This document shows positions 15,751-36,404 of a stretch of DNA of 64,000 nucleotides, one piece after another; the first letter of the stretch is position 1, and every line of letters starts with the position of its first letter. The DNA comes from Parapedobacter pyrenivorans (GTDB lineage: Bacteria > Bacteroidota > Bacteroidia > Sphingobacteriales > Sphingobacteriaceae): NCBI RefSeq assembly GCF_014636865.1, contig NZ_BMER01000001.1:608718-672717 (forward strand). Reading direction: 5' to 3'. A program made the position numbers and the translations under genes. The notes beneath the pieces are model-generated. The model did not search any database. It was given only the letters and a program-made list of their open reading frames with translations, and was not told where the DNA came from.

Positions 15751-15938
15751 GCTAAACCAGGTTTAATCAAAAATGTTAACTTAGCAAAGGTAACAGGAAA
15801 ATTGAAATATAAAACGGTCACTTAGAAAATTTCGGGAACCGTATTAGTGCGCATCAATATCCAAGTAAAATCAGCTAAAATTTGGCCATCGACTTAAAAA
15901 CGTCTTATTTACATTTGTTAATCAAAAATAACCATACC
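15751..15938. promoter_or_regulatory. divergent control region of the mutarotase and the DUF5695 gene, with weak operator site F
   Basis: This 188-bp A+T-rich gap separates two divergent genes. On the plus strand AAAAACGT-CTTATTT-ACATTTGT at 15896-15918 resembles TTAAATGT-N7-ACATTTAA at 5 of 8 and 6 of 8 positions, a weak match. It overlaps TACATTTG at 15910-15917, a perfect Bacteroidota -7 box, although no TTG stands 19-21 bp upstream; the nearest, TTTG at 15881, is 25 bp away. Regulation by AraR here is speculative. Confidence 0.35.
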
Positions 15939-18710: not shown

Positions 18711-19463
18711 CGTTCTTACCCGCAATTCAAGCACCTGCCAGTCGTCATCGGTGAATCGGATCCAGAAGGTTGCGCAGCATGCTCCGAGGCCATCTACCCG
18801 CATAATGCGTATCGGAATGGCATGATGTATTCCAGCTATACCGCCGCATCCTTTGCTCGCAAATTGGATATCGCTGACCATCACAACACAGATTTGATCG
18901 GTGCTGTTAGTTGGTCTTTCGAATTTGAAGACCAGCCGTGGTTTGCCGGTTTCCGGGATCTGGCCACCAATGGAGTCGACAAGCCAGTATTAAACGTATT
19001 CCGGATGTTTGGCATGATGACCGGAAACCGCGTCAATGTCTCTGGTCAATTTAACTATGACTTCAAAAAGATATTGGAAAACAGCGTGCGAGGCGCTGAG
19101 CGAGACATCAACGCTCTGGCATCCAAGGATGACCGGAGTGCGGCCGTCATGGTTTGGAATTATCACGATGACAACGTCATCGGGCAAGCAGCCCCAGTGG
19201 TTGTAAATATCGCTGGCATCCCCGCTGAAAAAGTCTACCTCCAACATTACCGGATTGATCAGGAACATAGTAATTCCTACGAAGTCCGGAAAAAAATGGG
19301 ATCTCCACAGTCACCTAGTGAAGTGCAGATCCGCGAGTTGGAGAAAGCCGGACAGCTTCAACTGCTGGAGTCACCCCAATGGATTTCCACGGAGAACGGA
19401 AAGTCATCCGTGACCTTCTCACTGCCGCAACAAGGGGTGACCTTGCTGCGCTTGACATGGTGA
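18711..19463 (+). pseudogene. 5'-truncated GH39-like glycosidase remnant
   Basis: An open frame of 250 codons runs from just after a stop (18708-18710) to the stop at 19463. The first in-frame ATG is only at 18822, yet the residues before it are clearly coding (PVVIGESDPEGCAAC, then YPHNAYRNGMMYSSYTAAS). The whole reads as the C-terminal part of a GH39 beta-xylosidase-like enzyme, with WSFEFEDQPWFAGFRDLA and KPVLNVFRMFGMM and a C-terminal beta domain. The Glu in VVIGESDP is in the position expected for the nucleophile. The acid/base half of the TIM barrel and any signal peptide are absent. GH39 enzymes are normally about 500 residues. The remnant begins 6 bp after the preceding gene's stop, so a deletion probably removed its 5' half. 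Confidence 0.75.
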
Positions 19464-19532: not shown

Positions 19533-19562
19533 TTTGTTTAATATAAATACAACGTGTTTTTG
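19533..19562 (+). promoter_or_regulatory. candidate promoter of the GH31/sugar-acid operon
   Basis: TTTG at 19533-19536 is followed after 18 bp by TGTTTTTG at 19555-19562, which matches the Bacteroidota pattern TTTG-N19-TAnnTTTG at 7 of 8 -7 positions. Transcription would start near 19570 and leave a leader of about 100 nt before the transporter ATG at 19669. The 205-bp gap otherwise shows TTGATTGTTGACA near 19482, which I could not assign. Confidence 0.45.
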
Positions 19563-19668
19563 AAAAATACACTTTGTTTCATGAAGCCTCGATGACAGGC
19601 GTTATCCTTGGCTGAATTGTAACCATTCAAAGACGGTTCACATTTTGTGGCCCATTGAAGACCAAATT

Positions 19669-20958
19669 ATGAAGATAAATCACGATACCTTAGGCGATGA
19701 AAAGCCATTGAAAATACGCTGGGTGATGGTCATTCTGGCTTTTCTCGCCACGGTATTGAACTATGTACACCGGCTTTCTTTTAACTATTTGAGTGCCGAC
19801 GGTGAACTACGTGAACTGATTCCGGACGATGCATTCGGCTATATCGGTACCGCATTCTTTATCGCCTACATGTTATCGAATGCCTTCTCCGGCCTTGCTA
19901 TCGACAAGTTGGGCACGCGATTGGGCTATGCACTCTGTATGGCATTTTGGACAACCGCGGCGTTGGTACATGCCTTTGCTATTACACCCTTCCAATTTGG
20001 CTTGGTCCGCTTTTTTCTGGGATTGGGTGAAGCGGGAAATTGGCCGGCGGCCATCAAATTGATCAGCGAATGGTTTCCGCCGCATGAACGGTCAACCGCT
20101 TCCGGCATCTTCAACAGCGGTTCGGCGCTGGGGGCTATCATCGCCCCGCCTTTAGTAGCGTTCCTAGGCATCAATTATGGTTGGCAATCGACCTTCATCA
20201 TTCTGGGTATTACGGGTTACCTGTGGCTTGCCGCATTTTGGTTTACCTATTATACGCCCGAACGTGCGACCAAAGAAGCGCGGGCGAGGATTATCCCCCC
20301 CATGAAGCTATTCAAAACGCGGTTCCTGCGCATGTTTACGCTCTCTAAATTTTTCATGGATCCCATCTGGTATTTCGTGACATTCTGGATCGGTCGCTAC
20401 CTCGCAGACGTGCATGGATGGGATATGGCAAAAATCGGGTGGTATGCCGTTATCCCCTTTCTCATTGCAGATGTGGGTAATCTCATCGGCGGTTATTTTA
20501 CCCAATTTATCATCAAAAAAAGGGTGCCAATCCCCAAGGCTCGGAAAATTGCAGTGGGTATAGCCGGCGCGCTGATGTGCCTGCCGCTTTTGCTTGCGCC
20601 GTTCATCGTCGTTTCCCCGATGTCCGCTTTGATCTTGTTTGGCGTTTCGGGCTTCGGGTATACGGCCTATACGGCAAATTCACTCGCATTTCCCGCAGAT
20701 GTGGTGCCCAAGAGCGCTACTGCATCGGTTTGGGGGCTGGCTTGCGTCGGTACGGGACTCGGTGGAGCGCTTTTCCAAGCGTTGTCGGGTGTCACCGTGA
20801 AGACGTATTCTGCGGTTTACAGCTATACTACCGCCTATGATATCCTGTTTATCGGATTCGGTATCGCAGGGCTCATTGGTTTGCTTATCATGCTCTTTTT
20901 TATGGGACCACTGAAAAAAAATGAGGAATTGCATCGATACGTCGAAACGGACAAGTGA
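19669..20958 (+). CDS. MFS transporter, ExuT-like anion:cation symporter family
   Basis: A 429-aa inner-membrane protein with about 12 hydrophobic helices. It shows ACS-family features: NYVHRLSFNYLSADG in helix 1, DKLGTRLGY after helix 2, and GLGEAGNWPAAIKLISEWFP, which is the hallmark of hexuronate/sugar-acid transporters such as ExuT. I take the ATG at 19669 (MKINHDTLGDEK); an in-frame ATG at 19645 adds eight residues. It is the first gene of a tight rightward run (22 bp to susC) whose end encodes a sugar-acid dehydratase, an SDR and a FAH-family enzyme. That suggests the imported substrate is an aldonate, uronate or similar acid, with proton symport. The exact substrate is unknown. Confidence 0.85.
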   Translation: MKINHDTLGDEKPLKIRWVMVILAFLATVLNYVHRLSFNYLSADGELRELIPDDAFGYIGTAFFIAYMLSNAFSGLAIDKLGTRLGYALCMAFWTTAALVHAFAITPFQFGLVRFFLGLGEAGNWPAAIKLISEWFPPHERSTASGIFNSGSALGAIIAPPLVAFLGINYGWQSTFIILGITGYLWLAAFWFTYYTPERATKEARARIIPPMKLFKTRFLRMFTLSKFFMDPIWYFVTFWIGRYLADVHGWDMAKIGWYAVIPFLIADVGNLIGGYFTQFIIKKRVPIPKARKIAVGIAGALMCLPLLLAPFIVVSPMSALILFGVSGFGYTAYTANSLAFPADVVPKSATASVWGLACVGTGLGGALFQALSGVTVKTYSAVYSYTTAYDILFIGFGIAGLIGLLIMLFFMGPLKKNEELHRYVETDK

Positions 20959-20980
20959 AAAATAACTAACCTCCAACGAT

Positions 20981-23947
20981 ATGAAAAGCTTCAATTCATT
21001 CCAATGGTTTTGCATCGCTTATTTGATTTGCATGTACCCATTATCCGGCATGGCGCAGGCACAGCGGGAAATCAGGGGTAAAATTACCGACGCTGATTCC
21101 GGTGAATCGCTTGCCGGCGTCACTGTAAAAGCCCAACTCGCCAACGGAAGTACTTCGACCGATGTCAACGGCAATTATTCCATCGCGATGCAACCGGGCG
21201 ATACGCTAACCGTTGCTTTTTTGGGTTATGTTACCCAGACGGTCGCTGTTGGCACGCAGTCTACCATTAACATTGCACTCGCGACAGATGTTTCCGAATT
21301 GGGAGAAGTTGTCGTTATCGGGTATGGCACCCAGCGGAAAGGTGATGTAACCAGCGCAATTGCCAGTCTGAAGGAGGCGGATTTTACCAAAGGTGCTATG
21401 CGCGATGCCTCCGAGCTTATCCGTGGGAAAGTGGCTGGCCTGAATATAACCAACGGTTCGGGTGATCCCGCTGCTACGCCAAACATCAACCTCAGAGGTA
21501 TTTCGTCGTTACAGGGAAACACGGCACCCCTGGTTTTGATTAATGGGATTCCGGGCGAATTCAATACCGTTGCGCCACAGGAAATCGAGTCTATCGATGT
21601 GTTGAAAGATGCCTCCGCGGCAGCCATCTACGGAACCCGTGGCGCAAACGGTGTCATTTTAATCACGACCAAGCAAGTGGATCGCGACATTCCGACAACG
21701 CTCGATTACAGCACATATTTTTCGCAAACTGACTTCTACAAAAGGGCAGACTTCGTAGATGCCGGTCAACTGCGGGGGCTGATTCAACAAGGGCTTCTTC
21801 CGGAGTCATACGACGAAGGGCATACCACGGATTGGCTAAGCGAAATCACCCGAAAGGGATTCATCCAAAACCACAATCTCAATATCAAAGGTGGAAACTC
21901 GCGGTCTAACTACGTTGGTAACTTCAACTACCTGGGAAACGACGGTGTATTTGTACGGTCGTACAACAACGAGTTGCGATTATCGTTTGACGTCAACCAC
22001 AGTATGTTTGACAACCGGTTAAAACTGAATGCCAACATACTTAGGGGGTCGCGGACAGGCAGTGCCCTTGGTGACGGTGAACCGTTCAATCAAGAAATAT
22101 ACCGCCAGGCCCTGATTAGGAACCCAACGGAAAGGGTGATTGATGATCAGGGAAAATGGTATGAGACTTCCCTACGCGAATCCACCAATCCGGTAGCAAT
22201 GATTCAGGAAACCGATGGGATCATAACCAATGACTGGACCCGCGTAACCGCTAATGCCACGGTTTCAATCCTCGACGGCTGGGATGCAAAGCTGATGCTG
22301 GCTACGGATAGGCGTACTCGGCTGGAAGGGTATTCCGAGACTAAACAACATGCGTCCAACACGAAAAACGGGCTTAACGGCTATGCCTCTAGGGGCGACG
22401 GCAAAAGCACGACGGACTATTTGGAAATGACTTCCACCTATTCGAAAACGATGGACAGGCATAGACTGAATGCGTTGGCAGGCTACAGTTACCAATACCA
22501 TGTCAATTCAGGAGGCTTTTACACCAATTCGGACTTCCCGACGGACAAGTACTCGTATCACAATATGACGACCGGGGCAGCCCTCTTGGAAGGGCGGGCC
22601 ACAATGGGCAGTAATAAGGACGATGATCGGCTTATTGGCTTTTTTGGCCGGGTAAGCTACGGCTTTGATAACCGATACAATATCCTCGCCAGCGTAAGGC
22701 GCGAGGGATCCTCAAAATTTGGCGTGAACAACAAATGGGGGACATTCCCGTCTTTATCGTTGGGTTGGACCATCAGCAATGAGCAATTTATGCAGGATAT
22801 CGGATTTTTAACCAACCTGAAATTGAGAGGGGGTTACGGGGTTACTGGCGTGATTCCGAATGACTCCTATCTTTCGCAAACCTTACTGACCTATGAAGGG
22901 AATTTCTATACCAACAATCAATGGATACAAGGCCTTGTACCCGTTAGCAACCCCAACCCTGACTTACGCTGGGAAAAGAGCAATGAAGTGAATATCGGGT
23001 TGGATTTCTCCCTTTTTGCAAATCGGCTGAGTGGCAGCATCGACGCTTACAATAAGCTGACCAAGGACATGCTCTGGGATTATACCGTACCCGTACCCCC
23101 TTACCTCTACAATCGAATCAAAGCGAATGTGGGTGAAATGCAAAACCAAGGGATAGAAGTGCTGTTAAATGCCACGCCCGTAAAGAAAGCTAATTTTGAA
23201 TGGAGTGCCTCATTCACCTTTTCACGCAATAAAAACCAACTGAATAGCCTTTCGAACGATCTTTTTGAGGTCGTTGGCGACTATTTCAACACGGGTGCGA
23301 CGGCAGCCCCCATCCAGACGTACACACACCGCTTGCAGGTCGGAAAGTCTGTTGGTAACTTCTTTGGTTTAAAAGCGGTAGACATCGATGAAAATGGCGA
23401 ATGGGTTATCGAAACGGCTGACGGAACAAGGAAAAAAATATCAGAAGCAACCAGTGATGACGACAAACAGTATTTGGGCAACGGTATACCCGCGATGAGT
23501 GGTGGCCTGACAAATACCTTTCGGCATAAAAACATCGACCTCAGTGTTGTTATCACAGGTGAATTCGATTTTCAAATCCTCAATTTCCAACGGATGTTTT
23601 ACGAAAATCCGACGATCCAATATAATATGCTCAACAGCGCCTTTGATAAAGTTTATGGAAAAGCAACGCTCAATTATCCACAGGCCTACGTAAGCCATTA
23701 CATTGAAGACGGCGATTACCTTAAAGTACAGAATATTACCATCGGGTATAACCTACCTACAAAAACCATTAAATTTCTGAATTCCGCGCGAATATATGCC
23801 GCAGGGACCAACCTATTTGTCTTCACCGACTATAAAGGGTTGGATCCTGAAATTGAACGGCGGAATCAATTGACAGCAGGTACCGATTCCAGGGACAAAT
23901 ACCCGACCTATAAGACCTTGACTGTTGGACTGAACGTAACCTTTTAA
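20981..23947 (+). CDS. SusC-family TonB-dependent transporter
   Basis: A 988-aa protein with signal peptide (cleavage near GMAQA), a carboxypeptidase-regulatory-like domain (about 30-105), VVVIGYGTQRKGDVTSAIAS, plug motifs IESIDVLKDASAAAIYGTRG, and a barrel ending TVGLNVTF with the terminal Phe expected for BAM recognition. It imports oligosaccharides across the outer membrane. It is closely related to the susC at 56651-59611: the FTKGAMRDASELIRGKVAG and GDP-containing plug segments are shared. The first susC of the window is more distant. SusD follows after 12 bp. Substrate is presumably the product of the three downstream GH31 enzymes or their precursor. Confidence 0.93.
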   Translation: MKSFNSFQWFCIAYLICMYPLSGMAQAQREIRGKITDADSGESLAGVTVKAQLANGSTSTDVNGNYSIAMQPGDTLTVAFLGYVTQTVAVGTQSTINIALATDVSELGEVVVIGYGTQRKGDVTSAIASLKEADFTKGAMRDASELIRGKVAGLNITNGSGDPAATPNINLRGISSLQGNTAPLVLINGIPGEFNTVAPQEIESIDVLKDASAAAIYGTRGANGVILITTKQVDRDIPTTLDYSTYFSQTDFYKRADFVDAGQLRGLIQQGLLPESYDEGHTTDWLSEITRKGFIQNHNLNIKGGNSRSNYVGNFNYLGNDGVFVRSYNNELRLSFDVNHSMFDNRLKLNANILRGSRTGSALGDGEPFNQEIYRQALIRNPTERVIDDQGKWYETSLRESTNPVAMIQETDGIITNDWTRVTANATVSILDGWDAKLMLATDRRTRLEGYSETKQHASNTKNGLNGYASRGDGKSTTDYLEMTSTYSKTMDRHRLNALAGYSYQYHVNSGGFYTNSDFPTDKYSYHNMTTGAALLEGRATMGSNKDDDRLIGFFGRVSYGFDNRYNILASVRREGSSKFGVNNKWGTFPSLSLGWTISNEQFMQDIGFLTNLKLRGGYGVTGVIPNDSYLSQTLLTYEGNFYTNNQWIQGLVPVSNPNPDLRWEKSNEVNIGLDFSLFANRLSGSIDAYNKLTKDMLWDYTVPVPPYLYNRIKANVGEMQNQGIEVLLNATPVKKANFEWSASFTFSRNKNQLNSLSNDLFEVVGDYFNTGATAAPIQTYTHRLQVGKSVGNFFGLKAVDIDENGEWVIETADGTRKKISEATSDDDKQYLGNGIPAMSGGLTNTFRHKNIDLSVVITGEFDFQILNFQRMFYENPTIQYNMLNSAFDKVYGKATLNYPQAYVSHYIEDGDYLKVQNITIGYNLPTKTIKFLNSARIYAAGTNLFVFTDYKGLDPEIERRNQLTAGTDSRDKYPTYKTLTVGLNVTF

Positions 23948-23959
23948 TTCCTTATCGCC

Positions 23960-25570
23960 ATGAAGAAAATGATGAGAAACACATTCACGTTGAGCGCGGC
24001 CGTCGTCGTGTCCGCCATACTTTCATGTACGAAATTAGATGAATCGGTATACGATTCCATTATCGCGGAAAGTACAGAACTGACCTCAGACGATATCAAC
24101 AACATCGTCGCCCCGGCCTATACTTCGCTCCGGGCGCTGTATTGGGGATGGCACAGCTATTTCGACACACAGGAGGAGTCATCAGATGTAATCGTGACAC
24201 CGATCAGGCTACCAAGAGGGGGATGGGATGACGGAGGTGTGTATCGGACCATGCATATGCATACGTGGGATGCAACGCAAAGTCACACCCGGCAGTTATG
24301 GAGCCGGTGCTTCGCGGGCATCAACAACGCAAACCGCGCCATGTATCAGCTACAGCAAATAGACGGACTCGAGAACCTGGAAATAGCACTGGATGAGTTA
24401 CGCGCATTGCGCGCGTTCTATTACTATATCCTCTTGGACCATTTCCGGAATGTACCTATCGTGGATCGGTTTGACGTTCCACAGGGTTTCTTGCCCGAGC
24501 AAAATTCAGCAGACGAGGTGTTCGCTTTCGTGGAAAGTGAATTGACCGAAATCTTGCCTCGCTTAAGCGAAGAACAGAGTGCCGTTACCTACGGCCGGAT
24601 GAATAAATGGGCAGCCAAAATGGTATTGGCTAAACTATACCTCAACGCGGAAATATATATCGGTACGCCAAAATGGGAAAATGCAATGGTCCAAGTTGAT
24701 GATATCATCGACAGCAAGAAATTTAGCCTGGCAGCCAATTACAAAGATCCGTTTATCACTGACAATGAAGGATCCGTCGAACAGATTTTTTCCATACCCT
24801 TCGATGAGATATATGCTAAGGAGTTTAATTATCACATGAAAACATTGCATGCACTCAGTAGACAAACATTTGGCATCCAAGCAGAACCTTGGGGAGGGAG
24901 TTGTGCAATCCCCAAATTTATTGATACCTATGATTCCGATGACAGCAGGTTGGACGACACGTGGCTCTCCGGGCCGCAATATTCGGCTACCGGACAACCG
25001 CTGATACTGGGAAACCAACCATTGGATTATACGAATAGATTGACAGCGCTGACCGGCTCACAGGAAAATGAAGGGCTGCGTTTCATCAAATATGAAATCA
25101 AGCAAGGCTCCTTAGCCGGATTGGGTAATGACGTCCCCTTCTTTCGGTATACGGATGCGTTGATGATCAAGGCAGAATGTCTCCTTCGCCTGAACGATGC
25201 CGCCGGTGCCGCTTCCATCGTAACGTCCATTCGGCAACGCGCCTTCGCAACTACAAACCCCGACAAGGCAACGGTAACGGGCAATCAGCTAACCGCGGGC
25301 AGCCGCTACGTGTATGGCAACTATGCCAACGGCACCATGACATCGACGGAGGGCGGTGCAGACATCCCCTACGGTGGGTTTCTGGATGAGCTCGGATGGG
25401 AATTTGCTGGCGAACATCACCGGCGGCAAGACCTCATACGCTTTGGTGTGTTTACCACAAAATCTTGGTTTGCACATCGACCAAATGGAGCACATCGCGT
25501 ATATTTCCCCATACCACAGGTTCAATTGGACGTCAATGGTAACCTGCAACAAAACGAAGGTTATAATTAA
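23960..25570 (+). CDS. SusD/RagB-family glycan-binding lipoprotein
   Basis: A 536-aa lipoprotein: signal peptide with lipobox near VSAILSC (Cys about residue 23), then KLDESVYDSI and the tetratricopeptide-rich SusD fold with WSRCFAGINNANRAMY and LRALRAFYYYILLDHF. The C-terminal region has YGGFLDELGWEFAGEHHRRQDLIRFG, quoted in part as the conserved ELGWEFAGEHHRRQDL motif of RagB/SusD. It binds glycan at the outer surface and closes the SusC barrel. It is the partner of the adjacent susC and is close in length and sequence to the SusD at 55019-56629. GH31 genes follow after 20 bp. Confidence 0.93.
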   Translation: MKKMMRNTFTLSAAVVVSAILSCTKLDESVYDSIIAESTELTSDDINNIVAPAYTSLRALYWGWHSYFDTQEESSDVIVTPIRLPRGGWDDGGVYRTMHMHTWDATQSHTRQLWSRCFAGINNANRAMYQLQQIDGLENLEIALDELRALRAFYYYILLDHFRNVPIVDRFDVPQGFLPEQNSADEVFAFVESELTEILPRLSEEQSAVTYGRMNKWAAKMVLAKLYLNAEIYIGTPKWENAMVQVDDIIDSKKFSLAANYKDPFITDNEGSVEQIFSIPFDEIYAKEFNYHMKTLHALSRQTFGIQAEPWGGSCAIPKFIDTYDSDDSRLDDTWLSGPQYSATGQPLILGNQPLDYTNRLTALTGSQENEGLRFIKYEIKQGSLAGLGNDVPFFRYTDALMIKAECLLRLNDAAGAASIVTSIRQRAFATTNPDKATVTGNQLTAGSRYVYGNYANGTMTSTEGGADIPYGGFLDELGWEFAGEHHRRQDLIRFGVFTTKSWFAHRPNGAHRVYFPIPQVQLDVNGNLQQNEGYN

Positions 25571-25590
25571 TACCACTAAGCTAATACGAC

Positions 25591-27933
25591 ATGAAAAAGC
25601 CGAATCCCTTCATTACGCTATTGTTCACATTTGCGGCATGCACGCAGTCGCTGGTTGCACAACAACCCATCTTGGCTGAAGGACAGCCAGCACAGCTTGA
25701 TATCCGGGCTGCCGGTGAGCATAGCATCCGGATCACGTTGAAACCCATAAGCTTTAAGGCCGATTTCCCGAAAAACCCTGCCATTGATGACATTGCATAT
25801 CCAAAACCGGCAATCAGCCTCACCGAGATTTCAGGAGCAGTCACCAAAAAAATAGGCAATTTGAATGTATCCGTCAGCCCGGATCCCCTTACCGTAACGG
25901 TAACGAATACTACCGGACAGGAAATCCAGAAACTGGTTTTCGATAGCGAGGGACGGTTATCGTTCAACATGGGAGACGAGCAAATATTGGGAATGGGTGA
26001 AGGCGGCCCAAAGCCTGAACGGGGCGCTGACTGGAGAAACGCGACAATCGAATACGACAGAAGGGGGCGTTACCATAAGATGGAACCGCGCTGGCAGAGC
26101 GATACCTATGGCTCACGGAATCCGGTTGCGATGCTTTGGGGAACGCAGGGATGGGGTATCTTTGTGGCTACTCCCTGGGTTGAGGTAGACTTGGAAAGTA
26201 GCGACCAAAACGGGTTTTTCATTCCCTGGAAAGCGCCAACAGACGTGGAACAACCTCAAACACAGCGTAATCAGCATGATCAGAACGGCAAGGGAAGACA
26301 TCCGGTAAAGGATGTGGTCCCCGGCTTATATGACCTGTTCGTGTTTGACGCTCACGAACCGACCCTTTCAATGAAAGACTTTTCAACGATTACCGGTAAA
26401 GCAGCCATGCCGCCCAAATGGGCAATGGGATACATGCAATCACATCGGACCCTCAAGGATGACGATCAGATGATCGGCATTGTCGATACATTCCGCACAC
26501 GGAATATTCCATTGGATGCCGTCATTTACCTGGGTACGGGATTTGCTCCCCGGGGATGGAACGAAAAACAACCTTCCTTTGAGCCAAATCCCGATGTCTT
26601 CAAACGCAAACCCATTGATTTCTTCAATGACATGAAGGATCGGAACGTCAAGGTAGTCCTGCATATGGTCCCTTTTGACCGGGACAAATTGCCGACCTTA
26701 CAGGGAACCATCCCACCGAAACCCAATGAAGTGCTTGACAACTCGCACATCTTCAATTACTGGAACCTCCATGAAAACCTGGTGAATATGGGGACTGCCG
26801 CATTCTGGCCTGATGAAGGCGACTGGTTCAACCTGTTTGAGCGGATAAAACGCCATCAGTTGTATTACCAGGGATCTTTATACACCACGCCTAACGTCCG
26901 TCCCTGGAGCCTTCAACGCAATGGTTTCCCCGGCATTGCCAAGTGGGGCGGATGGGTATGGTCCGGTGATACACAGTCGACCTGGAAAACCCTTGAAGGT
27001 CAAATCGCCGTGGGCATCAACTATTCGTTGAGTATCGGACCTTTCTGGGGTTCGGATATCGGTGGGTTCTATGTCACTTCCGAACGAACTGGAGAAATGT
27101 ATACACGCTGGTTTCAATTTGCAGCTTTCTGTGGCTCTTTCCGCTCACACACCAGAACCTGGCACTTAGGCCTGCCTTGGGGATGGGGGCTGGACGATAT
27201 GGGACCGAAGGAAGACAACGGGAGAAACGAACCTTCCACAGACCCGGATCGCATTATTGCCCAGTCAGAAATGAACAACCCGCTAGTGGAACCCATCGTG
27301 AAAAAGTACGATGAGCTACGGTACCAGTTACTTCCTTATAACTACACACTGGCAGCAGAGGCCCGGAGTGAGGGATTGCCCATGATGCGGGCCATGTGGC
27401 TTTATTATCCGCAAGACGAAAAAGCAACCAGCCTGGGCGACCAATACCTTTGGGGCCGTGATATGCTGATTGCACCGGTCTATAAAAAGGGAGCAACCCA
27501 ACGGGAAGTCTATCTGCCCGAAGGCGAGTGGTACGACTGGTGGACCAACAAAAAAGAAACCGGAAAACGGACCGTTTCCCGCACAGTGGATTTGGCTACT
27601 ATGCCTATTTACGTACGTGCGGGAGCCATCATTCCGGTTGACCCCATCCGTCAATATGCCACGCAGGAGGTAGCTGGCCCGACGACCATCAAGGTATACC
27701 ATGGCGCAGATGGTGCATTTACGCTCTATGAAGACGATGGTGTGACCCTGGATTACGAAAAAGGGGAATCCACGCAGACTCAGTTTATATGGAATAATGC
27801 CGGCAATAAACTGACCATCAGCCCGGCATCATCCGGCACAGCGAAGGCCAAGACGTTCAAAGTCGAGCTGCTGCCTACAGGAACAATCAAAGAAGTCAAC
27901 TATACGGGAAAACCGGTTGACGTCACGTTTTAA
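25591..27933 (+). CDS. GH31 family alpha-glycosidase, first of three
   Basis: A 780-aa secreted protein with a cleavable signal peptide (SLVAQQ). It has an N-terminal galactose-mutarotase-like beta domain (about 30-255), a TIM barrel (about 270-620) starting PPKWAMGYMQSHRTL, and C-terminal beta domains with PIYVRAGAIIPVDP. Asp408 in FWPDEGDWF sits where the GH31 nucleophile is found, and Asp460 in WSGD fits the acid/base. The motif WPDEGDW differs from the WxDMNE of alpha-glucosidases, so the substrate is probably not a plain alpha-glucan. It shares long identical stretches with the next gene, a tandem duplicate. The real linkage and sugar are unknown. Confidence 0.88.
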   Translation: MKKPNPFITLLFTFAACTQSLVAQQPILAEGQPAQLDIRAAGEHSIRITLKPISFKADFPKNPAIDDIAYPKPAISLTEISGAVTKKIGNLNVSVSPDPLTVTVTNTTGQEIQKLVFDSEGRLSFNMGDEQILGMGEGGPKPERGADWRNATIEYDRRGRYHKMEPRWQSDTYGSRNPVAMLWGTQGWGIFVATPWVEVDLESSDQNGFFIPWKAPTDVEQPQTQRNQHDQNGKGRHPVKDVVPGLYDLFVFDAHEPTLSMKDFSTITGKAAMPPKWAMGYMQSHRTLKDDDQMIGIVDTFRTRNIPLDAVIYLGTGFAPRGWNEKQPSFEPNPDVFKRKPIDFFNDMKDRNVKVVLHMVPFDRDKLPTLQGTIPPKPNEVLDNSHIFNYWNLHENLVNMGTAAFWPDEGDWFNLFERIKRHQLYYQGSLYTTPNVRPWSLQRNGFPGIAKWGGWVWSGDTQSTWKTLEGQIAVGINYSLSIGPFWGSDIGGFYVTSERTGEMYTRWFQFAAFCGSFRSHTRTWHLGLPWGWGLDDMGPKEDNGRNEPSTDPDRIIAQSEMNNPLVEPIVKKYDELRYQLLPYNYTLAAEARSEGLPMMRAMWLYYPQDEKATSLGDQYLWGRDMLIAPVYKKGATQREVYLPEGEWYDWWTNKKETGKRTVSRTVDLATMPIYVRAGAIIPVDPIRQYATQEVAGPTTIKVYHGADGAFTLYEDDGVTLDYEKGESTQTQFIWNNAGNKLTISPASSGTAKAKTFKVELLPTGTIKEVNYTGKPVDVTF

Positions 27934-27999
27934 TGGATACCGGTAACGGTTTCATAATGCGTCAACATTAATGACTTGAAATGCTATCGTATTGAAATC

Positions 28000-30345: not shown

Positions 30346-30356
30346 TTTAGTTCATC

Positions 30357-32600
30357 ATGAAAATCCTTTGGACGATAACAGCGGTTTTACTATGCAGTGT
30401 AACGGTTTACGGGCAAAGCAGCACCGAAATCCGTTACGGAAAAAGAAAAGCCGAACTTGCTATCTCACAGGTTTCCGACCTCACATTGGAAATCAAATTG
30501 TCTCCGCTTGGAGCTAATGGGGAACCCACGGTATCTCCGCCTTCCGATGTGCTCATCGACTATCCCCGTACCCTACTCTGGCGGGGAACGACCATAGCTG
30601 GCGGCGAAATAACCAAAAAAGCCGGCGCGCTCACTATCCATATCCGCTCATCCCCGCTTTCGGTAAGCATCGAAGATCGGGAGGGAACCGTGATACAGGA
30701 GTTCGCCTGGCCGGATGAAGAGACGGGTGCCACATCTTTCCAGACACCTGCACCTGTTTATGGAATGGGTGAAGGTGGAAGGCTGGATCACCTAGACCGG
30801 AGAGGCTTTCTTCACCCGATGAAGGATGGAAATGCGTCTTATGAGTTGGCTACGCATGGGGCCTACATCGCAGCTCCGATGCTGATCGGACTTAACGGCT
30901 GGTCGCTGTTTTTCCACCACCCCATTAGCAAGGGCAACTTCATTGATATGCGCCATGCAGATGGCAAATTCCTTCCAGCACTAGAAATGCTGGAACAACC
31001 GTTGACGTTCATCGCTACGTGCTGGACCAAGCCTATCGAAATTTTCACGGAATACCGGAAAATAGCTGGAGTAACGCCGTTACCGCCGAAGTGGTCGTTG
31101 GGATACATGCAGTCCCATCGTACCCTTTCGGGCCCCGATGAACTATTTTGGGTGGCCCACAACCTACGTGAGCGTAACCTGCCAACTGATGCGCTCATTT
31201 ATTTGGGAACGGGTTTTACACCCACCGGCTGGAATAACGGCCACGATTCGTTCGACTTCAATCCACTTATATTCCCTAACCCCGAGGGGATTATCGATAG
31301 TTTACAAAACCTCGATTTCAAGGTGGTGCTTCATAACTATGCCCCGCCACGCAACCTCCATGGCGCGTCCATTGACGGTTCCAATCCGACCGATACCGGC
31401 AACATCAACCATTTTTGGAACAGGCATCGTGCAGCCAACAGCCTGGTCGATGCATGGTGGCCTGATGGTGGCGAGGGACTTTCTGCCGAATCCCGCGTCG
31501 CACGGCACAAAATGTACTATCAAGGTCCGTTATACGACAAAGCCAATATCAGGCCTTGGAGCCTGCACAGAACGGGATATAGCGGTGTGAATCGTTACGG
31601 TGGCTGGATTTGGTCCGGAGACCCCAGCAGCCGATGGAAAACCCTCCAAACGCATATTGCGGTTGGCCTCAATCATTCGGTCAGCCTGACACCTTTCTGG
31701 GGTGCAGATATTGCAGCATTCGTTCCCACAAACGAGCTTACCGGCGAACTGTATATCCGATGGTTCCAGTTCGCGGCATTTACCGCTTCGTTTCGGGCCC
31801 ACGGCCGTACCTGGCATCTGCGGCTCCCTTGGGGATGGAACCAGGGTCACGTAGGTCCGCCTGAATCGTCCATCTTCGACAGCGAAAATCGCGATGCCAC
31901 GCTTCAGCACGGATATCCTTATCCCGACGAATTGAGGAATACCTTGATTGAGCCGATTGCTCGCCAATACCTCAATCTACGGTATCAACTGCTTCCGTAC
32001 AATTACTCCATTTTCAAAGAGACGTACGATAGCGGAGTCCCGCCCATGCGAGCGATGTGGGTTGCCTACCCGGACGATCGCCACGTTGCCAATATGGATG
32101 ACCAGTATTTCTGGGGTGACGACCTGCTGGTTGCTCCGGTTTACGAACGTGGACAAACCTCTCGGAATTTATACCTACCACAAGGCAATTGGTACGACTT
32201 CTGGACCAACGAAGTGATAGCGGGCGGACGTTTCATTGCGCGGAAAGTAGATTTGGCAACGTTGCCACTATACGTCCGTGCCGGAGCCATCATTCCGTTC
32301 GATCCGGTCAGGCAATATACCGCCGAAGAAGTGAGCGGCAACACCACCCTGAAGGTATACGGAGGAGCAAATGGGACATTCACCCTGTACGAGGATGATG
32401 GCAACAGCCAGGAATACCTCAAAGGCACCTTCAATCAAACAACGATTACGTGGGATGATGCCAGCCGCACCCTGACCCTGAAGCCGACGCATAGCGACGG
32501 AAAAAAGGTGGCCGACCGGGTATTCACTGTCGAATTGTTTCCGGGAGGTCAGTTCAAGACCATCACGTATAGCGGAAAAGAAGCCAGTTTCAAGTTATAG
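30357..32600 (+). CDS. GH31 family alpha-glycosidase, third of three, divergent
   Basis: A 747-aa secreted protein (signal peptide ending SVTVYGQ). It is recognisably related to the two preceding GH31 proteins (PPKWSLGYMQSHRTLSGPDE, YVRAGAIIPFDPVRQY) but shorter in the N-terminal domain. The nucleophile motif reads WWPDGGEG with Asp370, and the acid/base is Asp422 in WSGDP. The change from PDEGDW to PDGGEG next to the nucleophile implies different substrate binding. It starts 11 bp after the second copy, in the same operon. It may remove a different residue from the same glycan. No specific substrate can be read from the sequence. Confidence 0.86.
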   Translation: MKILWTITAVLLCSVTVYGQSSTEIRYGKRKAELAISQVSDLTLEIKLSPLGANGEPTVSPPSDVLIDYPRTLLWRGTTIAGGEITKKAGALTIHIRSSPLSVSIEDREGTVIQEFAWPDEETGATSFQTPAPVYGMGEGGRLDHLDRRGFLHPMKDGNASYELATHGAYIAAPMLIGLNGWSLFFHHPISKGNFIDMRHADGKFLPALEMLEQPLTFIATCWTKPIEIFTEYRKIAGVTPLPPKWSLGYMQSHRTLSGPDELFWVAHNLRERNLPTDALIYLGTGFTPTGWNNGHDSFDFNPLIFPNPEGIIDSLQNLDFKVVLHNYAPPRNLHGASIDGSNPTDTGNINHFWNRHRAANSLVDAWWPDGGEGLSAESRVARHKMYYQGPLYDKANIRPWSLHRTGYSGVNRYGGWIWSGDPSSRWKTLQTHIAVGLNHSVSLTPFWGADIAAFVPTNELTGELYIRWFQFAAFTASFRAHGRTWHLRLPWGWNQGHVGPPESSIFDSENRDATLQHGYPYPDELRNTLIEPIARQYLNLRYQLLPYNYSIFKETYDSGVPPMRAMWVAYPDDRHVANMDDQYFWGDDLLVAPVYERGQTSRNLYLPQGNWYDFWTNEVIAGGRFIARKVDLATLPLYVRAGAIIPFDPVRQYTAEEVSGNTTLKVYGGANGTFTLYEDDGNSQEYLKGTFNQTTITWDDASRTLTLKPTHSDGKKVADRVFTVELFPGGQFKTITYSGKEASFKL

Positions 32601-32643
32601 GCGATAAAAACATTAGATAAAACAAACAAATACCAACTGTCAA

Positions 32644-33813
32644 ATGAACATCAAGTCCATCAAAACAAAACTATATGTTTGGAAAGGTCCGGTAAAAACA
32701 GCAGATACGATCTTTGCAACACCCGTTAGTTTACTCCCTTTCCAAACCGATGCACAGGCGCCTTACCGCTTTTTCTCTTGGTTGGTTGTGGAAGTGGAAA
32801 CGACCGACGGGCATGTGGGGATTGGCAATGCCGGGTTGTGCCCCGATGTGACCAAACTCATCGTAGACACCAGACTTGCTCCCTTGCTCATCGGCGAATC
32901 GCCACTCCATACCGAGTACCTCTACGAAAAGATGTACCGTTCTACCGTGGCTTACGGTCGGAAAGGTGCCGTGATGGCTGCCATCAGCGCACTGGATATC
33001 GCCCTCTGGGACATCAAGGGGCAGGTGATGCAACAACCGGTGTTCATGTTGCTCGGTGGGCGGACGAAGGAATATATCCCCTCCTACTACAGCAGGCTTT
33101 ATACCCGCAATCTCGACGATCTTCAGGCGGAAGCCTCACATTACAAATCACTGGGATTCAAAGGCATGAAGCTACGCTGTGGCTATCCGCTTACAGACGG
33201 GCTTGCGGGCATGAAGAAAAATGTCGAAATGGTCCGGCTGGTACGCGAAACCGTGGGCGATGATGTCGACGTCATGCTCGAAGCCTATATGGGCTTCAAT
33301 TTTCCTTATGCAAAGCGATTGTTGCAGGAACTCGAACCCTATAACCTACGCTGGGTTGAGGAGCTTCTCCTTCCCGACGAAATCCACCTGTTCAACAAAT
33401 TAAAGCAATATACCGCGATTCCGCTCTCGGGCGGCGAGCATGAGTACGGCCATTTCGGCTTTTATGATCTGGTAAAGGCCGATGCACTTGATATTTTCCA
33501 GTTCGACACTAACCGGGTAGGCGGGTTTACACAAGCACAGAAAATCTGTACCCTTGCGTACAACGAAGGGATAGAAATTATTCCACACGGCGGGCAAATG
33601 CACAACTTACACGTGGTCATGAGCTCCTTTGCCTCGCCGATGGCCGAGTACTTCCCGAAAACCGAAATCGAAGTGGGGAACGAGCTATTCTGGTATATTT
33701 TCAATGGTGAAGCCGTAGCTGAAGACGGGAACCTGCAACTCGACGATAAAAAGCCCGGCATGGGCTTAACCCTGAAAACAACAGATCTCAGAAATTTTAC
33801 CATTATCCAATAA
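32644..33813 (+). CDS. enolase-superfamily sugar-acid dehydratase, L-rhamnonate dehydratase-like
   Basis: A 389-aa cytoplasmic enzyme of the mandelate racemase/muconate lactonising group. A capping domain (1-125) is followed by a barrel with FKGMKLR (Lys176), ligands in WVEE (Glu239/240) and SGGEHEYG (Glu265), and base His315 in IIPHGGQ. The stretches YNLRWVEE, SGGEH and HNLHVVMSSFASPMAEYF resemble L-rhamnonate dehydratase, which turns an aldonate into a 2-keto-3-deoxy acid. The first metal position reads Glu213 (VMLEAYM) where Asp is usual. It is followed after 15 bp by an SDR. The natural substrate could be rhamnonate, lyxonate, fuconate or another acid; context favours a sugar acid imported by the ExuT-like transporter. 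Confidence 0.82.
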   Translation: MNIKSIKTKLYVWKGPVKTADTIFATPVSLLPFQTDAQAPYRFFSWLVVEVETTDGHVGIGNAGLCPDVTKLIVDTRLAPLLIGESPLHTEYLYEKMYRSTVAYGRKGAVMAAISALDIALWDIKGQVMQQPVFMLLGGRTKEYIPSYYSRLYTRNLDDLQAEASHYKSLGFKGMKLRCGYPLTDGLAGMKKNVEMVRLVRETVGDDVDVMLEAYMGFNFPYAKRLLQELEPYNLRWVEELLLPDEIHLFNKLKQYTAIPLSGGEHEYGHFGFYDLVKADALDIFQFDTNRVGGFTQAQKICTLAYNEGIEIIPHGGQMHNLHVVMSSFASPMAEYFPKTEIEVGNELFWYIFNGEAVAEDGNLQLDDKKPGMGLTLKTTDLRNFTIIQ

Positions 33814-33828
33814 CAACGCTTACCATAC

Positions 33829-34605
33829 ATGACACATCCTATTTTAGAACAATTCAAACTCGATGGAAAATCTGCGCTGATATTCGGTGGCAACAGGGGG
33901 CTAGGTCTTGCGATGGCCAATGCCCTGGCTGACGCCGGTGCGAATGTCGCAATTGCCGCCCGCGATACAGCAACCAACCTGAAATCCGCGGAATCAATCA
34001 GCAGCAATTATCAGGTCGACTGCATTGGCCTTACCTGCGACGTATCCCACGAAGCGCAGATTGTATCCACCGTCCAAAATACTGTCGAGCAATTTGGCAA
34101 AATAGATATCCTCATCAATTCCGCAGGCATCAATATCCGCGGTCGGATTGAGGAGCTTTCATTTGCGGATTTCCAAAAAGTACAACAGGTAAACGTCAAT
34201 GGCGCATGGATTGCTTGCCGGGAAGTCGTGCCCCACATGAAGAAAAATGGTTACGGAAGGATCATTAATGTTGGTTCCATGCTTTCGCTGACCGCAATCC
34301 CAGAACGGACACCTTATGCGACAAGTAAAGGTGCAATCCTTCAACTTACGCGTTCACTTGCTATCGAGCTGGCGGAAGACCAAATCAATGTGAATGCACT
34401 GCTACCTGGCCCGTTCGCTACCGAGCTTAACCTGCCCCTGTTGGAAGACCCGGAAAAATACCAAGCCTTCATCTCCAAGATTCCCATGAAGCGATGGGCA
34501 CAACCCGAGGAAATTGGCGGGATTGCCCTGTATCTTGCCAGTCCGGCATCTGGTTTTGTCACTGGAGCAGGATTTGCCATCGATGGCGGTTGGATTGCAC
34601 AATAA
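33829..34605 (+). CDS. SDR-family oxidoreductase, putative 2-keto-3-deoxy-sugar-acid dehydrogenase
   Basis: A 258-aa classical short-chain dehydrogenase. The cofactor loop is GGNRGLG (20-26), followed by NSAG (97-100), Ser150, Tyr163 and Lys167 in YATSK, and the C-terminal GFVTGAGFAIDGG motif. It oxidises or reduces a hydroxyl with NAD(P). It stands between a rhamnonate-dehydratase-like enzyme and a FAH-family enzyme. That is the order seen in the diketo-hydrolase variant of L-fucose/L-rhamnose oxidation, where an SDR oxidises the 2-keto-3-deoxy acid at C4. That role is inferred from context. A simple gluconate-5-dehydrogenase-like activity is the main alternative. Confidence 0.85.
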   Translation: MTHPILEQFKLDGKSALIFGGNRGLGLAMANALADAGANVAIAARDTATNLKSAESISSNYQVDCIGLTCDVSHEAQIVSTVQNTVEQFGKIDILINSAGINIRGRIEELSFADFQKVQQVNVNGAWIACREVVPHMKKNGYGRIINVGSMLSLTAIPERTPYATSKGAILQLTRSLAIELAEDQINVNALLPGPFATELNLPLLEDPEKYQAFISKIPMKRWAQPEEIGGIALYLASPASGFVTGAGFAIDGGWIAQ

Positions 34606-34630
34606 GTTAACCCACAAACGATTACTCGAC

Positions 34631-35647
34631 ATGGAAACCATTAGATTAGTTCAATTGATTCACCCACAGCAGGGTCGTCGCGTTGCATTGGTCAACGAAC
34701 CGCACCTGATGCTGCTTGATAAAAAATTCAATTCCGCATATTTCCTTGTTTTGGCAGCGTTCGAAAAGGAACTATCCTTTGGGGACCTTGTGCGTTCTGC
34801 AGTGACCGACGAAGCATTGGACTATGGAGCCATATACCATGGTGAAACCCTGTGGAAACTATTGTCTCCCCTTGATCACCCAACTAATCCGTATGCCTGC
34901 CTCGTTTCAGGCACCGGTTTGACGCATCGATCAAGCGCGCTAAACCGACAGTCTATGCATATCAAAGAACCCGAAGGGCTGACAGATAGCATGAAAATAT
35001 ACCGATGGGGCCTTGAGGGGGGTAAACCCGAAACCGGGCAGGTAGGTACGCAGCCTGAATGGTTCTATAAAGGGAGTGGTGCAATCCTCCGGGCACATGG
35101 ACAATCTCTTCGCATACCGTCCTATGCAGATGACGGTGGTGAAGAAGCGGAAATCGCTGGTTTATATATCATTGACCGGCAAGGAACGCCGATCAGGGTC
35201 GGGTTCTGCAATGGAAATGAGTTTTCGGATCACGTGATGGAAAAAAAGAACTACCTCTATCTCGCCCCTTCGAAACTACGGCAATGCGCTATTGGTCCGG
35301 AATTAGCTGTGGGGATCCCATTTTCAACCCTTGCAGGCCGTGTCAAAATCCGTAGGAATGGAGACGAAATCTGGCAGCATGATATCATGAGCGGAGAACA
35401 CTATATGGCACACTCGCTAGCAAACCTCGAACACCACCATTTTAAGTACGATGCCCATCGTATCCCTGGACAGGTACATGTCCACTTTTTCGGAGCCGAT
35501 GCCTTCAGCTTCGGCAATCAGCTTTACCTCGAGCATGGCGATAGCTGTGAAGTGAGTTGGGAACAGCTCGGCCGGCCGCTCATCAATCCGGTTCATCATG
35601 ACCTCGGAGAAGAAGAGTTGGTACGCGTTACGCCGATTGTCCTTTAA
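34631..35647 (+). CDS. FAH-superfamily enzyme, AraD1/GguC type
   Basis: A 338-aa protein of the fumarylacetoacetate-hydrolase superfamily, AraD1/GguC group. It begins METIRLVQLIHPQQGRRVAL, and the catalytic part has DDGGEEAEIAGLYIID (acidic metal ligands), GFCNGNEFSDHVMEKKNY and LAPSKLRQCAIGPEL. I chose the ATG at 34631, 25 bp after the SDR stop; longer in-frame starts overlap the SDR gene. AraD1 proteins have been linked to 2-keto-3-deoxy-L-arabinonate dehydration, while other FAH enzymes hydrolyse 2,4-diketo-3-deoxy acids to pyruvate and a hydroxy acid. With an SDR just upstream the hydrolase role is attractive, but both fit. It is the last enzyme gene of the operon. Confidence 0.84.
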   Translation: METIRLVQLIHPQQGRRVALVNEPHLMLLDKKFNSAYFLVLAAFEKELSFGDLVRSAVTDEALDYGAIYHGETLWKLLSPLDHPTNPYACLVSGTGLTHRSSALNRQSMHIKEPEGLTDSMKIYRWGLEGGKPETGQVGTQPEWFYKGSGAILRAHGQSLRIPSYADDGGEEAEIAGLYIIDRQGTPIRVGFCNGNEFSDHVMEKKNYLYLAPSKLRQCAIGPELAVGIPFSTLAGRVKIRRNGDEIWQHDIMSGEHYMAHSLANLEHHHFKYDAHRIPGQVHVHFFGADAFSFGNQLYLEHGDSCEVSWEQLGRPLINPVHHDLGEEELVRVTPIVL

Positions 35648-35671
35648 ATTAACTCACTACAAAACAACATC

Positions 35672-35694
35672 TTAAATGATAACTAAACATTTTT
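35672..35694 (+). promoter_or_regulatory. palindrome resembling the AraR operator, site E
   Basis: TTAAATGA-TAACTAA-ACATTTTT has the same half-sites and 7-bp spacer as TTAAATGT-N7-ACATTTAA (7 of 8 and 6 of 8). The spacer lacks the T-rich TTG core shared by sites A-D. It lies just upstream of the candidate promoter of the HTH-cupin gene. It could equally be the cupin regulator's own operator or chance in A+T-rich DNA. Confidence 0.3.
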
Positions 35695-35695
35695 C

Positions 35696-35726
35696 TTGTT
35701 TGATTTGATTAAACCTTGTATAATTG
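35696..35726 (+). promoter_or_regulatory. candidate promoter of the HTH-cupin regulator
   Basis: TTG at 35696-35698 is followed after 20 bp by TATAATTG at 35719-35726, which matches the Bacteroidota TTG-N19/20-TAnnTTTG pattern at 7 of 8 -7 positions. The predicted leader is about 55 nt to the ATG at 35790. The regulator therefore appears to have a promoter separate from the operon upstream. Confidence 0.5.
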
Positions 35727-35789
35727 GTTCAACACAGTTTACCAACGAATGTGGTTTAAACGCATTTTTGTATAACACCAACAATAGAA

Positions 35790-36332
35790 ATGAGTCCTCA
35801 ACTGAATATTGGAGATAGGGTAAAGGCATTGCGGATCAACCAGAAAAGAACCCTCCAAGAAGTAGCAGATGCCAGCGGATTGTCAAAGAGCATGATTTCC
35901 AAGATTGAAAACAACCTTACCGTGCCATCGGTGGCAACGTTGGTTAAGGTTGCAAAAGCGCTGGCCACAGATATTTCGAGTCTCTTGGAAGAACAGGGCT
36001 GGTTGAACGCTATCCACACGAAAAAAGATACCGCAGAAGGAAACCTGACCTTAACCGATAAAGGATATCACATTTATCCCTTCGCATCGGGTTTCCATAA
36101 GAAAAAGATGCAGCCGTTCCTCTTTGTAGCCCGAAAGGATGAAGTGAAACTTCACCAATTATCGCACGATGGCGAGGAATTCATTTATGTAATTAAAGGC
36201 GAAATGTCTATGAAAGTAGGAGACACCGAATACCATCTTTTTGAAGGAGATAGTCTATACTTCAATTCACTGCAAAAACATGGCATCATGCCGGTTTCGG
36301 AGGAAGTGGTCTATATTGATATTTTTGTTTGA
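35790..36332 (+). CDS. HTH (XRE-type) transcriptional regulator with C-terminal cupin domain
   Basis: A 180-aa protein. Residues about 6-62 form an XRE-type helix-turn-helix (LQEVADASGLSKSMISKIE), and residues about 105-178 form a cupin barrel (LSHDGEEFIYVIKGEMSMKVG, then GDSLYFNSLQKHG), quoted here in part. Proteins of this layout bind DNA and sense a small metabolite in the cupin. The gene lies 142 bp behind the FAH gene, has its own probable promoter, and is followed by a strong terminator. It is therefore the likely local regulator of the GH31/sugar-acid operon, responding to the sugar acid or a 2-keto-3-deoxy intermediate. That is inference. Confidence 0.88.
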   Translation: MSPQLNIGDRVKALRINQKRTLQEVADASGLSKSMISKIENNLTVPSVATLVKVAKALATDISSLLEEQGWLNAIHTKKDTAEGNLTLTDKGYHIYPFASGFHKKKMQPFLFVARKDEVKLHQLSHDGEEFIYVIKGEMSMKVGDTEYHLFEGDSLYFNSLQKHGIMPVSEEVVYIDIFV

Positions 36333-36351
36333 TCGGCTGCCATTCCCAAAC

Positions 36352-36404
36352 CTAGCAAAAGAAAATCCGCCTGAAGAGCTTTCAAGCGGATTTTCTTTTG
36401 CTAG
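36352..36404. terminator. bidirectional transcription terminator hairpin
   Basis: Arms at 36352-36370 and 36386-36404 are perfectly complementary over 19 bp around a 15-base loop. The arms contain GCAAAAGAAAATCCGC, so each strand ends in a T-rich run after a GC core. It sits between the convergent stops at 36332 and 36423 and would end both transcripts. The loop can add a few pairs (TGAA/TTCA). Confidence 0.9.

Follow-up and report, generated by a model that had tools for sequence, protein, structure and literature searches.

The window analysed here, a stretch of 64,000 nucleotides from Parapedobacter pyrenivorans (contig NZ_BMER01000001.1, positions 608,718 to 672,717), contains a glycan-utilization operon that also carries genes for sugar-acid catabolism. 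Ten co-directional genes form one rightward run on the plus strand (19645-36332 in window coordinates), from an MFS transporter through an HTH-cupin regulator. The MFS protein is anion:cation symporter-like (19645..20958; MFS_1, with TIGR00893 sub-threshold) and is 65-77% identical to the MFS proteins of other cassettes described below. It is followed by a SusC-family TonB-dependent transporter (20981..23947; TIGR04056, 710.7 bits, above cut-off), a SusD-family lipoprotein (23960..25570; PF07980, PF14322) and three GH31 enzymes, a (25591..27933; PF01055, PF21365, PF17137), b (27976..30345; 66% identical to a, with an internal ATG at 28000) and c (30357..32600; 43% identical to a). The last four genes encode DehR, a LyxD-like sugar-acid dehydratase of the enolase superfamily (MR_MLE; 32644..33813), a short-chain dehydrogenase/reductase (SDR; 33829..34605), a GguC/AraD1 protein predicted to be a 2-keto-3-deoxy-L-pentonate dehydratase (34631..35647), and a regulator with HTH_3 and Cupin_2 domains (35790..36332) with relatives close to the cassette in three further genomes (L004, L005, L050). 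The first-pass annotation had described the same run, and protein models and coordinates confirm it. It had not described the 5'-truncated GH39 remnant (frame open 18711..19463, plus strand) that precedes the MFS gene. The operon most plausibly feeds an L-pentonate cassette of the Weimberg-type "Route II", an explanation to which we assign a probability of about 0.6.

The adjacent susC and susD genes, co-directional with glycosidase genes, give the run the gene content of a polysaccharide-utilization locus. The intergenic gaps from the MFS gene to gguC are 22, 12, 20, 42, 11, 43, 15 and 25 bp, and 142 bp separate gguC from the regulator gene. The ATG at 34631 is the likely start of gguC, the longest open reading frame beginning at 34514. 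Scans for promoters and terminators returned sites no more numerous than in shuffled sequence.

The first-pass annotation had assigned the dehydratase, the SDR and the "FAH-family enzyme" to the diketo-hydrolase branch (Route III), which ends in pyruvate and a hydroxy acid. That reading was dropped on the FAH-fold enzyme itself, because of its GguC family, its KdaD-like profile and fold, and the absence of a DHAxE string. The protein scores 417.8 bits against the GguC/AraD1 model NF040903 (cut-off 340) and has no Pfam match at the threshold used; the FAH label fits the predicted fold, which appears FAH-like but nearest to dehydratases. KdaD is 2-keto-3-deoxy-D-arabinonate dehydratase. As a single sequence, GguC finds no PDB relative at 1e-5, and a profile of 17 GguC sequences has KdaD (2q18, E 2.6e-8) as its sole significant PDB match, the next standing at 0.1. 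In that profile, Glu143 of the window protein aligns with Glu114 of KdaD and lies in a PEWF motif present in all 17 rows. When the AlphaFold model (predicted local distance difference test, pLDDT, 79.9) was searched with Foldseek, KdaD took ranks 1-4 (E 8.1e-17 to 2.2e-15), followed by Cg1458 at rank 5 (3.7e-12) and an entry with the incomplete title "2-keto-3-deoxy-D-xylo..." at rank 6; L-2,4-diketo-3-deoxyrhamnonate hydrolase came at rank 19. An FAH/MhpD-type L-2-keto-3-deoxypentonate (L-KDP) dehydratase, C785_RS13710, has been assayed, its Glu138 being named in the available part of the report (PMC6336799). Numbered from the MR start, the PEWF Glu takes position 138 in five of six proteobacterial GguC rows (139 in L040), and C785_RS13710 is probably itself a GguC. 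Judged by its family, its profile and fold matches and its active-site Glu rather than by assay, GguC looks like a Route II dehydratase.

DehR shares 50% identity with PDB entry 3sqs and 49% with 3stp, and its PDB matches include 5olc (DauB). The first-pass annotation called it rhamnonate-dehydratase-like; its score on the rhamnonate-dehydratase model is 224 bits against a cut-off of 393. Since DehR falls so far below that cut-off, "L-rhamnonate dehydratase" annotations on this family may be wrong. We take LyxD enzymes to be defined by a KxR motif on strand 2, a His-Asp dyad and three acidic metal ligands, these residue roles being assumed. Among 39 labelled DehR relatives, K176, R178, E239, E265, D288 and H315 are invariant, and position 213 is E in 34 and D in 5; judged on these rows, DehR appears to carry the LyxD residue set.

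In other genera DehR and SDR again occur side by side, in most cases with GguC as well, and their grouping is therefore not due to chance. Within the family, DehR occurs in 3 of 251 genomes (the window's own included), and in the phylum sample it occurs in 1 of 395 (its own only). The scan of named genomes took the best 80 of 584 DehR relatives, of which loci L051-L085 (at most 37% identity) were barely used, apart from some SDRs in the SDR tree. Among the 47 loci L004-L050, 28 have PdxA, 7 have GH39, none has both and 12 have neither; the rows are not independent, 12 of the 28 PdxA loci being from Pelagibacteraceae, and the 12 "neither" loci include several short contigs as well as L031, where clustering shows a partial relative of PdxA. 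In a longer stretch around L005 (L138), a PdxA relative of 34% identity lies some 18.5 kb away from DehR. In a tree of 50 dehydratases (9 GH39-linked, the window counted by its remnant; 30 PdxA-linked; 11 neither; L043 dropped), a single branch with 100/100 support separates GH39-linked from PdxA-linked DehR. The GH39-linked members span four phyla, represented by Bacteroidota, Sphingomonas, Bryobacteraceae and Gemmatirosa.

The window order is GH39 remnant-MFS-[SusC-SusD-GH31 x3]-DehR-SDR-GguC. In Dyadobacter (L007) the order is SusC-SusD-DUF3823-like-GH39-GH39-DehR-SDR-GguC-MFS, with SusD and DUF3823 recognized by clustering with L005. Locus L050 has SusC, a SusD-like protein (by eye), two GH39 enzymes, DehR, SDR and GguC; there, TRAP genes stand instead of MFS, following gguC with a 4-bp overlap. 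Genome G022 (L005/L138) has SusC, SusD, DUF3823, GH39, DehR, SDR, GguC, GH3, MFS, an aldehyde dehydrogenase (ALDH) and two more GH39 enzymes. Genome G034 (L004/L139) has an HTH-cupin protein, DehR, SDR, GguC, MFS, ALDH, a beta-propeller protein and two GH39 enzymes, adjoined by a glucose/sorbosone dehydrogenase (GSDH)-family protein and cytochrome c. The idea that this beta-propeller is a relative of the ascorbate-cluster YncE was rejected, as no usable score was obtained. Simpler arrangements are GH39-MFS-DehR in Sphingomonas (L010) and Bryobacteraceae (L021), and DehR-GguC-ALDH in L012, L034, L035 and L040. Relatives of ALDH occur in 9 of 9 genomes tried, the window's own included, and in G034 and G022 they form part of the cassette cluster; the best model for the G034 enzyme is 2,5-dioxovalerate dehydrogenase, at 80.6 bits against a cut-off of 750, which is a hint only.

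The GH39 remnant aligns to residues ~318-575 of intact relatives of about 575 residues, the N-terminal half with its WNEP motif being gone, and by tblastn it is 54-67% identical to the GH39 enzymes of L005, L007 and L050 and 49% identical to that of L010. Its first start codon is at 18822 and no stop occurs until 19461. Two TAG stops once counted inside it were rejected as such, since they mark its 5' edge: that at 18702 ends a DUF5695 gene, and the other is at 18708. That DUF5695 gene (15882-18704, plus strand) ends just 5' of the remnant and in frame with it. The window genome contains no second match to GH39 of this type. The GH31 trio seems to have taken the place of GH39, and the sequence can be read as a GH31 module entering an old GH39-MFS-DehR order, by insertion or exchange, as GH39 decayed.

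All three GH31 enzymes have the GH31 barrel with an accompanying DUF5110 domain, and both Asp408 and Asp460 are kept in 3 of 3; we take these to be the nucleophile and the acid/base of GH31. Judged by eye, the N-termini of a and b are lipoprotein-like and that of c is signal-like. A structure model of GH31 was set aside for its pLDDT of 39.6. The best-scoring solved GH31 enzymes are mostly alpha-xylosidases and alpha-glucosidase-type enzymes, and the solved relatives of GH39 are beta-xylosidases, alpha-L-iduronidases and one unspecified glycosyl hydrolase. The trio was found in none of the 250 other genomes of the family at E <= 1e-150 and in none of the 394 other genomes of the phylum at E <= 1e-130. 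Among ten genomes chosen for DehR or GguC, that of L050 (G638) carries a 59% relative of this GH31 clade beside two GH127 genes, and that of L043 (G637) has a 157-residue fragment of the clade at a contig end that fails the strict threshold. At equal thresholds the clade occurs in one of six other Bacteroidota cassette genomes versus 0 of 394, which is no more than suggestive of co-occurrence. A Fisher p value of 1.9e-4 was weakened because it had counted the sub-threshold G637; without G637 it becomes 6/400 = 0.015.

On the basis of gene content, gene order, protein families, conserved residues and recurrence, a pathway may be proposed in which all substrates, the site of C1 oxidation, the role of the SDR and the ligand of the regulator are predicted elements. 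SusC and SusD would import an oligosaccharide or glycoside, and the three exported GH31 enzymes, having replaced the ancestral GH39, would trim it. The released five-carbon sugar, as an aldonate (oxidized outside the inner membrane, or an acid already), would enter through the anion-type MFS transporter. In the cytosol, DehR would remove water from an L-pentonate to give 2-keto-3-deoxy-L-pentonate, GguC would carry out a second dehydration to alpha-ketoglutarate semialdehyde. The oxidation of this to alpha-ketoglutarate would fall to an aldehyde dehydrogenase whose gene lies outside the operon, elsewhere in the genome. The SDR would probably act before or beside DehR, dehydrogenating or reducing either the sugar or the acid made from it, and the HTH-cupin protein would sense the acid. 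The pentonate might be L-lyxonate, by analogy with the family, or L-arabinonate, by context. That context includes AraD1, the GH127 genes beside the related GH31, and the genes for L-ribulokinase, ribulose-5-phosphate 4-epimerase and L-arabinose isomerase (araBDA) upstream on the same strand (7806-11762; each model above cut-off). The earlier statement that no kinase or isomerase is present is therefore true of the run and not of the window. The broader claim, that a non-phosphorylative sugar-acid pathway is built into a glycan operon, is supported.

Import of the acid, also part of the first-pass description, is probable. It is plausible from sequence because the MFS transporter is of an anion type, one relative has TRAP genes and another has a GSDH-family dehydrogenase. 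The best NCBIfam model for the MFS protein is the D-galactonate transporter TIGR00893, in keeping with the earlier assignment to a sugar-acid family; that assignment is softened by a score of 192 bits, well below the cut-off of 395. The exchange for TRAP genes in L050 and the GSDH-cytochrome c pair of G034 suggest, by analogy, that the acid arises outside the inner membrane; sugar oxidation at that site is no more than a tentative part of the scheme. Pseudomonas aeruginosa grows on L-lyxonate and not on L-lyxose, according to the available part of one report (PMC6336799).

A number of observations weigh against the L-pentonate cassette as just described. A Route III enzyme would be an FAH-superfamily hydrolase with a catalytic His-x-x-Glu in the form DHAxE, and a hydrolase with His83/Glu86 appears in the accessible text of PMC6336799. 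The DHAxE string is present in 0 of 17 GguC rows versus 4 of 4 hydrolase-type relatives (assigned as such by similarity, not assay; 18-24% identity between the groups). However, D200-H201-x-x-E204 is invariant in all 17 GguC rows, so that the motif test is not clean, and the low quality of the GguC model over residues 101-150 and 201-210 clouds it further. This DHxxE sits elsewhere in the alignment, where KdaD and the hydrolase types have a "DVS" stretch. C785_RS13710 accepts D-KDP too, leaving the L-stereochemistry uncertain (PMC6336799, available part). GH39-linked and PdxA-linked DehR differ at seven nearly fixed positions (131, 235, 244, 287, 324, 325 and 350), so that DehR may act on another acid than L-lyxonate. 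The solved relative 3stp is only reportedly an L-lyxonate dehydratase, one in which the KxR motif and the His-Asp dyad are both present. The G034 cassette directly follows fucP and genes for an SDR, a hydrolase, a lactonase and L-fucose dehydrogenase, and since that stretch has no other dehydratase, DehR there could serve L-fuconate. The DHxxE of GguC and these L-fucose neighbours together make the two-dehydratase core, DehR then GguC, weaker and Route III stronger; the core is still likely.

Gaps in the gene set count on the same side. The window operon has no ALDH gene, and the two candidates elsewhere in the genome are 45-48% identical to the G034 enzyme; one of them lies in a 4-hydroxyproline operon, which suffices to explain it. 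The run contains no lactonase, as the first-pass annotation had said, and no clear aldose dehydrogenase, the SDR being a candidate. In the SDR tree the cassette orthologues form their own clade (100/100); many of the tree's branches are long and weak, and it assigns the clade no function. In Sphingomonas L010 neither SDR nor GguC adjoins the locus, which carries a 3-hydroxyisobutyrate-dehydrogenase-like gene, and an incomplete metagenome-assembled genome of Chitinophagaceae has DehR-SDR-MFS (L006/G635, 537-3995) with no GguC there or elsewhere in that genome.

Several other explanations share much of this evidence. If the MFS protein brought in a free aldose such as L-arabinose, with the SDR as aldose 1-dehydrogenase ahead of DehR, GguC and ALDH, the whole Weimberg pathway could be cytosolic. 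SDR-type aldose 1-dehydrogenases do serve pentose pathways (PMC6336799, available part), and PRK07231, a broad "glucose 1-dehydrogenase" model, takes in the SDR of the window (228.6 versus 215 bits). The upstream araBDA genes and the GH127 genes adjoining the related GH31 would fit as well, and a galM relative near the Gemmatirosa cluster is matched by galM in the window (14599-15750, on the strand opposite to the operon). The transporter families nevertheless indicate acids, the closest solved match of the SDR is gluconate 5-dehydrogenase, and the searched stretches of the Sphingomonas L010 and Gemmatirosa GH39 clusters contain no SDR relative, making this arrangement unlikely, if worth keeping in mind. 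The first-pass annotation obtained an imported acid differently, by having the GH31 enzymes liberate it, either as an aldonate aglycone or as a uronate. Acid-type transporters and the GH39-MFS-DehR order in Sphingomonas L010 and Bryobacteraceae L021 speak for such release. It is improbable in view of the solved GH31 and GH39 relatives listed above and the mismatch between a uronate and an L-pentonate pathway, and no GH31 enzyme is known to act on aldonate or uronate glycosides. An imported acid could be had just as simply if a released aldose were oxidized outside the inner membrane.

The diketo-hydrolase route, in which the 2-keto-3-deoxy acid would be oxidized at C4 by the SDR and then cleaved by the FAH-fold enzyme to pyruvate and a hydroxy acid, draws on a similar gene set: L-KDP 4-dehydrogenases of the SDR type and a 2,4-diketo-3-deoxypentonate (DKDP) hydrolase exist (PMC6336799, available part). 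The DehR-SDR pair of L006, the L-fucose oxidation genes adjoining the G034 cassette and the invariant DHxxE, albeit at another alignment place, also favor it. We regard it as quite improbable, given that GguC sides with dehydratases by family, Glu143 alignment, profile and fold and is without DHAxE, that ALDH occurs in related clusters, and that the window SDR falls outside the clades of L-fucose-locus and Pelagibacter SDRs. The same genome, moreover, has hydrolase-type enzymes and separate SDRs at two other loci. One is an L-fucose-type locus (L120) with relatives of the G034 fucP (52%), SDR (73%), hydrolase (69%), lactonase (54%) and fucose dehydrogenase (71%), and the other has a 54% relative of the hydrolase; since these loci are separate, diketo-hydrolase chemistry seems to be served by its own genes. 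Least probable, and very much so, is that the cassette serves L-lyxonate of L-ascorbate breakdown and lies in a SusCD operon incidentally. Many proteobacterial DehR relatives do adjoin PdxA, and a Sphingomonas plasmid has cytochrome b561, gluconolactonase, YncE, PdxA, a dehydratase and araD1 close together, a set that fits L-ascorbate catabolism. L-lyxonate and L-xylonate are named as ascorbate-breakdown products (PMC11066805), and a named ascorbate pathway requires a COG4948 enzyme (PMC10444878), both according to the available parts of these reports. But the window has no PdxA, YncE or SMP-30 relative at E 1e-4, the 100/100 branch sets the GH39-linked DehR apart, and four Bacteroidota loci (L005, L007, L050 and the window) include a SusC gene in the run; SusD accompanies it by model in the window and L005, by eye in L050 and by clustering in L007.

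Some further loci seen in the scan bear on these end routes. Pelagibacteraceae contigs (L011, L013-L020, L022, L023, L025) have a dehydratase of the LyxD type next to PdxA, together with three conserved genes resembling, by eye, a tripartite tricarboxylate transporter; four of these contigs (L016, L018, L020, L022) also carry a hydrolase-type FAH protein and an SDR, which suggests L-lyxonate or ascorbate use in SAR11 via another end route. Locus L104 (G036:C3:128400-148300) combines a 39% GguC relative, ALDH, a 31% DehR-like protein, two SDRs and a 70% hydrolase-type FAH protein with GH20, and by its gene content would be a case of both end routes side by side. In the window genome, L092 (C2:651000-668000) has a galactarate-dehydratase-like protein with relatives of ALDH, SDR and MFS and is possibly a further non-phosphorylative sugar-acid cluster.

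The operon is bordered by other genes of sugar metabolism. An SSF transporter gene (11786-13540) and then a gene for a xylose-isomerase-like TIM-barrel protein lie 3' of araBDA on the same strand. Convergent with the operon is a large gene for a protein with ThuA, DUF7133, HEAT and cupredoxin (Copper-bind) domains (36426-39947, minus strand), which from its domains is a candidate sugar dehydrogenase of the outer compartment, equipped with an electron carrier of its own; the GSDH protein of G034 likewise shows a weak DUF7133 match. Beyond it, a GFO_IDH_MocA oxidoreductase, a xylose-isomerase-like protein and an AraC regulator (40030-43304) form what we take to resemble a cluster of the 3-keto-sugar type. 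A second DUF5695 protein is encoded at 45808-48609 (minus strand), and beyond a SusD-type gene (55022-56629) lie three tandem genes for DUF4859-domain proteins (59920-63981, minus strand), one with an added DUF6055.

The components of the operon are of known kinds. The L-lyxonate pathway of P. aeruginosa and the L-ascorbate pathway of Cupriavidus, reportedly described by Ghasempur in 2014 and Stack in 2020, are said to derive the acid from ascorbate through PdxA. With these the window shares an enolase-superfamily dehydratase (about 50% identical), AraD1/GguC and ALDH, while it lacks PdxA and has SusCD, glycosidases, an SDR and MFS. Pentose oxidation in Herbaspirillum huttiense shares the FAH/MhpD-type L-KDP dehydratase, an SDR and KDP chemistry, but dehydrates D-arabinonate with an enzyme of UxaA/GarD type (COG2721), unlike DehR, and the available part of the report mentions no polysaccharide operon (PMC6336799). 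Route III of L-fucose and L-rhamnose shares a dehydratase, an SDR and an FAH-fold enzyme; that enzyme is a hydrolase with DHAxE, unlike GguC, and such a set is found at L120. Glycan loci with a built-in oxidative sugar-acid pathway are already known from carrageenan, where the dauA-dauD regulon of Zobellia galactanivorans has SusCD and the enolase-superfamily DauB; it differs in using anhydro-galactose, a kinase, an aldolase and a GH129-like enzyme, and the part of the paper available makes no mention of GguC (PMC5698469). A literature search that covered few subscription journals found no locus in which a LyxD/GguC cassette is combined with SusCD and either GH31 or GH39, in agreement with the first-pass annotation, and the combination and its substrate look undescribed.

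The presence of an "FAH" protein in a sugar-acid operon is, on this evidence, insufficient for calling a diketo-hydrolase route. More speculatively, the GH39/GH31-linked branch may be an undescribed system of at least four phyla (glycosidase, anion transporter, LyxD-type dehydratase, often GguC and ALDH) for glycosides of some unrecognized L-pentose or of its acid. A rare GH31 clade of new specificity would have been swapped in for GH39 in this lineage, and, as read from a midpoint-rooted tree, ascorbate-linked LyxD would derive from an older glycan-linked grade. If the L-pentonate reading is right, a GH39 clade and a GH31 clade seen in few genomes, both of unsure natural substrate, would be tied to a named downstream chemistry, and the sugar that they release could be deduced from assays of the two cytosolic dehydratases.

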